Both the position numbers and the translations under genes were made by a program. The notes under the pieces were generated by a model, which worked only from the letters and a program-made list of their open reading frames with translations, was not told the origin of the DNA and did not search any database. Of a DNA stretch of 64,000 nucleotides, positions 50,538-51,747 are shown one piece after another (within the stretch, counting starts at the first letter, position 1; each line of letters opens with the position of its first letter). The DNA comes from an uncultured Pelagibacteraceae bacterium (GTDB lineage Bacteria > Pseudomonadota > Alphaproteobacteria > Pelagibacterales > Pelagibacteraceae): assembly GCA_902604975.1 (NCBI GenBank), contig CACLAY010000002.1:1-64000 (forward strand), given 5' to 3'.

Positions 50538-50858
50538 GTGACTGTTCAAAAAGGAAAATTTTCTATTGGAGATGTTGTAAAACATAAGCACTTCGATTTT
50601 AGAGGTGTAATTTATGATGTTGATTTTGAGTTTAATAATTCTGAGGAGTGGTATCAATCTATACCAAAAAACGTAAGACCTAGAAAAGACCAACCATTTT
50701 ATCATTTATTAGCTGAAAATGACGAAATCACCTACGAAGCATACGTTTCTGAGCAAAATTTATTAGTGGATGACTCTGATGAACCAATAAAACACCCTCT
50801 AATCAACGAGATATTCTCAGGGAAAAAAGGCTCTGGTTATTTTAAGCCTTCTAATTAA
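50538..50858 (+). CDS. hspQ: Heat shock protein HspQ (GTG start)
   Basis: KFSIGDVVKHKHFDFRGVIYDVDFEFNNSEEWYQS, PFYHLLAENDEITYEAYVSEQNLL. Confidence 0.93.
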   Translation: MTVQKGKFSIGDVVKHKHFDFRGVIYDVDFEFNNSEEWYQSIPKNVRPRKDQPFYHLLAENDEITYEAYVSEQNLLVDDSDEPIKHPLINEIFSGKKGSGYFKPSN

Positions 50859-50925
50859 GCTAATTTACATTATTTAAACACATTTCGTGCAAACCTTTGT
50901 CATAGATTTTTTCTAAAGTAAATTA

Positions 50926-50988
50926 TATTTTGACCAAGGATGTTTTATCCCATTTATTTTATCTCCCTCTGCGTTCTTGGTCAGAATA
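50926..50988 (+). ncRNA. Candidate structured RNA (18-bp hairpin with CU-rich loop) upstream of ccmC
   Basis: 50926-50943 pairs with 50971-50988 over 18 contiguous positions including 4 G.U pairs on the + strand; 27-nt loop UUUAUCCCAUUUAUUUUAUCUCCCUCU lacks G. Confidence 0.55.
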
Positions 50989-51039
50989 ACTCACCAGAAA
51001 AATTTTCATAATTTAAATTTGTGTTATAGATAACAGAAA

Positions 51040-51747
51040 ATGTTTAAGTATTTAAAACCAAATAATTTATTAAAAATAATAAATAAAACACAAAAATTTG
51101 TATTTGTTATTTTTTTAGTAATTATAAGCATTGGCCTTGTTGAGGCTTTAATACTTTCTCCAGAAGATTATAAACAAAGCGATTCGGTGAGAATTATGTA
51201 TGTCCATGTTCCAGCAGCTTGGATTTCTCTTGGAATTTTTTCTTTAATTGCTGTTTTGTCATTTGGTATTTTAGTTTTTAAAAATAAGAATCTTTCTTTA
51301 ATAACAAAAAGCTTAGCACCATCTGGTTTTGTTTTTAATGTTATTGCTTTGGTTACAGGATCCATTTGGGGTAAACCTACTTGGGGAACCTGGTGGGCAT
51401 GGGATGCAAGAATAACATCAATGTTATTACTTGCTTTTTTTTATTTAATGTTTCTTCTAAGTTGGAGGGTAACTGACAATGAGGAAAAAGCTGTAAAGAT
51501 TAGTTCGTACATAGCAATAATAGGTTTAATAAATGTCCCAATAATCAAATTTTCTGTTGAATGGTGGTCAACATTGCACCAACCTTCTTCAGTAAATATT
51601 TTTACAGAAACCTCCATTCATGCTTCTATGTTGTTACCTTTAGGTATAATGACTGCGGCATTTGCACTTTTTTCGCTTTTGATATTTTTGATGAAATATA
51701 ATACAGAACTGATAAAAATAAAAAATAAAGGATTAGATAGATTATGA
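51040..51747 (+). CDS. ccmC: Heme exporter/cytochrome c maturation protein CcmC
   Basis: VRIMYVHVPAAWISLGIF, WGKPTWGTWWAWDARITSMLLLAFFYLMFL. Confidence 0.96.
   Translation: MFKYLKPNNLLKIINKTQKFVFVIFLVIISIGLVEALILSPEDYKQSDSVRIMYVHVPAAWISLGIFSLIAVLSFGILVFKNKNLSLITKSLAPSGFVFNVIALVTGSIWGKPTWGTWWAWDARITSMLLLAFFYLMFLLSWRVTDNEEKAVKISSYIAIIGLINVPIIKFSVEWWSTLHQPSSVNIFTETSIHASMLLPLGIMTAAFALFSLLIFLMKYNTELIKIKNKGLDRL

Follow-up and report, generated by a model that had tools for sequence, protein, structure and literature searches.

A conserved single-hairpin RNA of the Pelagibacteraceae, a probable small RNA gene with an anti-Shine-Dalgarno-like loop

Hairpin loops with anti-Shine-Dalgarno (anti-SD) sequences are a feature of the Rhodobacter CcsR and CCUCCUCCC-type RNAs. 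In the alpha-r14 RNAs of the Rhizobiales (NfeR1/SmelA075), the hairpin loops keep an anti-SD motif and the stems have diverged strongly; a conserved stretch lies upstream of the gene, periplasmic components of ABC transporters are among the targets, and the RNAs are described as Hfq-independent (PMC10746234, PMC3927594). AbcR1 and AbcR2, found in the Rhizobiales and in Brucella, present the M1 motif CUCCCA single-stranded in their first hairpin and regulate transporter mRNAs (PMC5461406). Intergenic structured RNAs have also been surveyed in 'Cand. Pelagibacter ubique', from the same group of organisms as the DNA studied here (Meyer 2009; PMC2704228).

We analysed a hairpin in the 181-bp gap between hspQ and ccmC (50859-51039) of an uncultured Pelagibacteraceae bacterium. 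The window, the whole stretch of DNA analysed, is 64,000 nucleotides long. The two genes and the parts of the hairpin are as follows.

50538..50858, + strand: hspQ (YccV-like; Pfam PF08755, E 7.1e-30)
50926..50943, + strand: 5' arm of the hairpin (conserved part 50929-50943), from the fold and from covariation in 40 sequences
50944..50970, + strand: loop of 27 nt, G-free, with an upstream UCCC tract and UUAUCUCCCUCU, from the fold
50959..50970, + strand: conserved loop motif UUAUCUCCCUCU, core CUCCCU, an anti-Shine-Dalgarno-like seed, the core nearly invariant in relatives
50971..50988, + strand: 3' arm of the hairpin (conserved part 50971-50985), from the fold and from covariation
51040..51747, + strand: ccmC (Cytochrom_C_asm; Pfam PF01578, E 9.4e-35)

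In the minimum-free-energy fold of the + strand, 50926-50943 pairs with 50971-50988 through 18 pairs, 14 of them Watson-Crick and four G.U. The earlier note had read these coordinates and pairs, the G-free loop and the length of the gap from the sequence, and the fold bears it out. Compared with shuffled sequences, the + strand fold was unusually stable (z -2.66, 1 of 200), and the - strand fold was not outstanding (z -0.83, 42 of 200). No U-tract follows the 3' arm and no intrinsic terminator was found at the hairpin.

A scan with Rfam 15 at the gathering score gave no match to the hairpin, a tRNA being the only match in the window, and relaxing the threshold to E values up to 10 added only weak matches to the region, four in number, all unrelated and none of them relevant. 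The rhizobial RNAs that the earlier note had named as relatives are analogues only, given the lack of an Rfam match and the detection of the element in the SAR11 family only. Like alpha-r14, the SAR11 hairpin has a conserved loop in a divergent, covarying stem. NfeR1, however, is 123 nt long and folds into three hairpins that carry CCUCCUCCC, whereas the SAR11 RNA would be about 60-65 nt long, its single hairpin lies between a predicted promoter and a poorly conserved 3' flank, and its loop reads UUAUCUCCCUCU instead. AbcR (alpha-r15) RNAs have more than one hairpin and, between hairpins, the second motif GUUCCC; the SAR11 RNA is a single hairpin without a terminator, and its loop contains CUCCC but continues with U. 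The CcsR and CCUCCUCCC-type RNAs, compared by the Rfam scan only, differ from it in motif and setting. We infer that the SAR11 RNA would work like alpha-r14/NfeR1 and AbcR while being a member of neither. The gap between hspQ and ccmC is absent from the GC-rich gaps in Table 1 of the 2009 Pelagibacter survey, where neither gene is mentioned (PMC2704228). The hairpin was thus previously unlisted in both Rfam and that survey, and it may have an unnamed record in metatranscriptomic catalogues of small RNAs.

A DNA search against 100 relatives recovered the region in most genus-mates, with many matches stopping at the 3' arm of the hairpin. Among 26 aligned hairpins (alignment A1), 11 of the 18 pairs had changed on both sides and TATCTCCCTC in the loop was invariant; the three pairs at the base of the stem (50926-50928 with 50986-50988) were poorly conserved, with 35-62% of cells unpaired. 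Extending the comparison to 40 sequences revealed changes on both sides at all 16 stem pairs tested, with 128 double-changed cells and 91% of cells paired. This level of covariation was reached by none of 500 shuffles, and slid controls scored far lower. Conservation is highest in the loop: its core, CUCCCU, is nearly invariant, and CTCCCT occurs in all genera read. These results confirm that the hairpin is real, conserved and beyond chance, because its stem covaries and its loop is kept across the family. Pairing at the hspQ-ccmC junction of relatives was the check suggested by the earlier note, and there the stem covaries around a fixed loop. In one g9 genome (G129, L078:1526-1650), a part of the hairpin region that includes the CATCATCTCCCTCTTCGCT part of the loop is tandemly repeated just downstream of the hairpin.

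The same alignments bear on the strand. Over the 40 sequences (alignment A4) we counted about 74 G.U or U.G cells and about 11 A.C or C.A cells; G.U being the commoner, the RNA is therefore read from the + strand, as had been supposed from the window's four G.U pairs. A DNA inverted repeat, serving as an operator or a recombination site, would account for a long dyad present as a single copy near promoter-like boxes. Such a palindrome has no reason to show this strand asymmetry, however; the high conservation of the loop also speaks against it, and we consider this reading scarcely credible.

Searching with a covariance model revealed that genus-mates, in their large majority, each carry one strong copy; the genome to which the window belongs likewise has a single one. 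Nine genus-mates (g1) of at least 90% completeness and without a strong match were checked, and in all nine hspQ was also missing from the assembly, so the locus is simply missing from these assemblies. In other genera the hairpin has a different stem sequence with the same CTCCCT loop and again follows hspQ; it was present in every Pelagibacteraceae genus with a complete, readable region downstream of hspQ. No hairpin of this kind followed hspQ in the six genomes read from the sister family, and viral contigs gave no exact match. Across 386 genomes of the class, matches were confined to the Pelagibacteraceae and to one Pelagibacter-like contig (L172) in an alphaproteobacterial MAG of another family (G636), which we took as contamination. 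That contig is syntenic with Pelagibacter, its hspQ and ccmC being 89% and 74% identical to those of the window, and it is probably a contaminant. Four weak matches of the covariance model (L080, L087, L092 and L093) were discarded as chance: none is beside hspQ, and that in L080 falls inside an ORF. L090 and L091 are not copies of the hairpin and are antisense to a ribosome-binding site. As far as we searched, the element is restricted to the Pelagibacteraceae.

Between hspQ and the hairpin, alignments of 64 g1 sequences and 18 sequences from other genera revealed a further conserved stretch, which contains or precedes two promoter-like boxes.

50873..50904, + strand: conserved upstream block TTTAAACACATTTCGTGCAAACCTTTGTCATA, with the family form GCCacAAATTTAACA..ATT..TTCAAA.CT.TGACA
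50897..50902, + strand: -35-like box TTGTCA (9/12 sigma-70 match, 16-nt spacer)
50919..50924, + strand: -10-like box TAAATT, 16 nt beyond the -35-like box

This block of about 35 nt is kept in the genus and, in altered form, across the family, and ends in TTGTCA or TTGACA. It is probably an upstream activator site that runs into the -35 box. Transcription from the -35/-10 pair would begin at the base of the stem, near 50931. A simple promoter scan found three sites where 1.5 were expected and is itself weak evidence; the argument for a promoter is carried instead by the conservation of the block. The prediction is thereby supported, at the level of sequence.

The neighbouring genes are less constant than the unit formed by block and hairpin. 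On the 5' side, hspQ adjoins the unit in nearly all genomes and was found beside it in all genera read. On the 3' side, ccmC is the usual but not the constant neighbour. In L076 and L084 the hairpin is followed by a PagL-like ORF and then by an lldD-like one (both named from the ORF sequence alone), and ccmC was absent from the stretch fetched for L078; the hairpin is kept in all three. In one g7 genome (L086), an additional ORF sits between hspQ and the unit, with the upstream block and the hairpin remaining together. This ORF (L086:767-1471) encodes 234 aa and resembles a methyltransferase by its sequence. Because ccmC is not next in L076 and L084 and was not found in L078, and because an ORF is inserted after hspQ in L086, the hairpin unit is independent of both neighbours, as a small RNA gene should be.

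This independence weighs on two cis-acting explanations. One is that the hairpin belongs to the 3' untranslated region of hspQ, where it could affect stability or termination or give rise to a small RNA. The constancy of hspQ as a neighbour speaks for it, but the L086 arrangement, in which the block stays with the RNA, and the promoter-like boxes between hspQ and the hairpin argue against it; moreover, there is no U-tract, and a terminator has no need for a loop of invariant sequence. We give this explanation a slim chance. The other, which the earlier note had offered beside a trans-acting small RNA, is a 5' leader of the ccmC operon acting in cis, for example on mRNA stability or translation. 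In most genomes ccmC does come next on the same strand, the distance from CTCCCT to its ATG is confined to 50-87 nt (96 loci), and no terminator intervenes. A leader should, however, always lie upstream of the gene that it regulates, and the hairpin is kept in L076, L084 and L078. In the sequences inspected, the surroundings of the ccmC starts showed no complement of the loop. In addition, ccmC may have its own promoter downstream of the hairpin, a possible -10 of which lies just upstream of the gene in the window.

51025..51031, + strand: TATAGAT, possible -10 of ccmC's own promoter

In 61 of 96 relatives, a loose TATA-type pattern lies between the hairpin and ccmC, no more than 24 nt from the start of the gene. 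A ccmC leader is accordingly disfavoured and rated unlikely, and of the two proposals the trans-acting RNA is the one that stands. TATA-type 6-mers are strongly enriched genome-wide 2-20 nt upstream of predicted start codons in G012 and G109, which suggests that many SAR11 transcripts are near-leaderless.

We therefore favour, with somewhat better than even confidence, a gene for a trans-acting anti-SD small RNA of the Pelagibacteraceae, about 60-65 nt long and made of a single hairpin. The RNA would begin at the stem base, driven by the promoter just upstream, and the stem, whose structure is shown by covariation, would hold the G-free loop open. No terminator or U-tail was found behind the hairpin, which counts against this explanation. 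The CUCCCU(CU) seed could then pair with GGGAG-type ribosome-binding sites of a few mRNAs and block ribosome loading. In g1, proteorhodopsin would be the first candidate target, with ammonium transporters, solute-binding proteins and trimethylamine (TMA)/methylamine genes as further candidates. Transcription as a small RNA, translational repression and a wider regulon are what we infer from these features. The anti-SD reading of the CU-rich loop, already made in the earlier note, gains from the conserved CUCCCU core and from strong complements at several ribosome-binding sites.

A pattern search for proteorhodopsin start regions matched 152 of 250 genus-mates. In the roughly 150 rows listed, which share ancestry and are not independent tests, AGAGGGAG or GAGGGAG precedes the proteorhodopsin ATG in all but four (G030, G378, G449 and G942). 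The site stays while the bases upstream of it and the synonymous codons vary. AGAGGGAG is the exact complement of CUCCCUCU in the loop, an 8-nt match; with the 16S tail, two G's of this site could form no more than wobble pairs. Duplex energies at this site were -14.9 kcal/mol with the loop and -10.4 with the assumed 16S tail, against -5.4 with the loop and -8.8 with the tail at an AAGGAG site; the tail is the standard sequence, the genome's own not having been found by the pattern used. No other single observation is as strong, and proteorhodopsin is the best candidate target in g1 on present sequences. The arrangement AGAGGGAG-TTTTTT-ATG is itself nearly invariant (G012 C1:210078-210133 and about 150 other genus-mates), and loop pairing does not explain the T6. 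Because the genomes share ancestry and this spacer is also conserved, other constraints on the 5' region are possible. GAGGGAG also precedes a proteorhodopsin-like start in g17 (25-genome family sample). In g12 (G109), proteorhodopsin has the canonical site AAAAAGGAG, which does not match the loop, and the set of targets therefore appears to differ between genera.

The loop might instead be read by a protein. Cold-shock proteins, Rho and other pyrimidine-tract binders bind G-free CU tracts, and the loop is a tract of this kind. A protein-binding RNA or decoy would also fit the energies computed over all ribosome-binding sites of G012 and G109, where the loop paired no better overall than shuffled loops, a result that counts against the anti-SD small RNA. 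It would leave unexplained the exact 8-nt match at the proteorhodopsin ribosome-binding site in nearly all listed g1 genomes, and we hold it to be distinctly improbable.

Transcription factors are scarce in SAR11 bacteria, which are believed to depend on post-transcriptional control, with riboswitches as its documented RNA examples (PMC13198564, PMC2704228). One paper describes proteorhodopsin as constitutively expressed (PMC3090418). A family-wide small RNA with a named candidate target would make the idea of post-transcriptional control in SAR11 testable and would provide a candidate regulator for proteorhodopsin. The hairpin may control genes for light energy and nutrient uptake in some of the sea's most abundant cells, and suggests that a distant and streamlined lineage uses the rhizobial anti-SD loop principle too, reduced to a minimal form with one hairpin. 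More tentatively, and at somewhat less than even confidence, this SAR11-specific RNA might be a global post-transcriptional regulator of proteorhodopsin light capture and nutrient uptake, in bacteria whose transcriptional regulators have mostly been lost.

Few Shine-Dalgarno sites exist in SAR11, and the enriched form in G012 is AAGGAG (40 occurrences versus seven for GGGAGA). The loop pairs poorly with AAGGAG and strongly with GGGAG-type sites, better than the assumed standard 16S tail does. Besides proteorhodopsin, GGGAG-type sites in G012 precede two Amt transporters, DctP and SBP_bac_1 solute-binding proteins, an FMO (probably Tmm), a glutamine-synthetase-like gene (probably GMAS) and an alcohol dehydrogenase. 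In G109, many genes with GGG-type sites have N-termini like those of solute-binding proteins, and signal-peptide-like N-termini were called in 11 of 27 genes with GGG-type sites versus 11 of 98 with canonical ones (p 0.001); the corresponding figures in G012, 4/19 versus 17/144, were not significant (p 0.27). This enrichment is suggestive only, because the signal-peptide call is a crude heuristic with evident errors (an FtsZ-like protein of G012 was called secreted) and the GGG-type pattern was chosen post hoc, after the loop had been seen. Full-length loop complements before ATG were also collected from 121 genomes and set aside: recurrent matches with readable N-termini lay mostly inside genes, in reading frames resembling, by sequence, a GTP-binding elongation factor and a carotenoid desaturase, which is a further point against the favoured explanation. 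GAGGGAG is found ahead of a solute-binding-protein-like gene of g7, which carries an 11-nt complement of the loop. In the 25-genome sample, GAGGGAG also preceded a MKKLSLIALATA start in g7 (candidate identity) and, in g11 and g6, a GMAS-like and a coxS-like start respectively.
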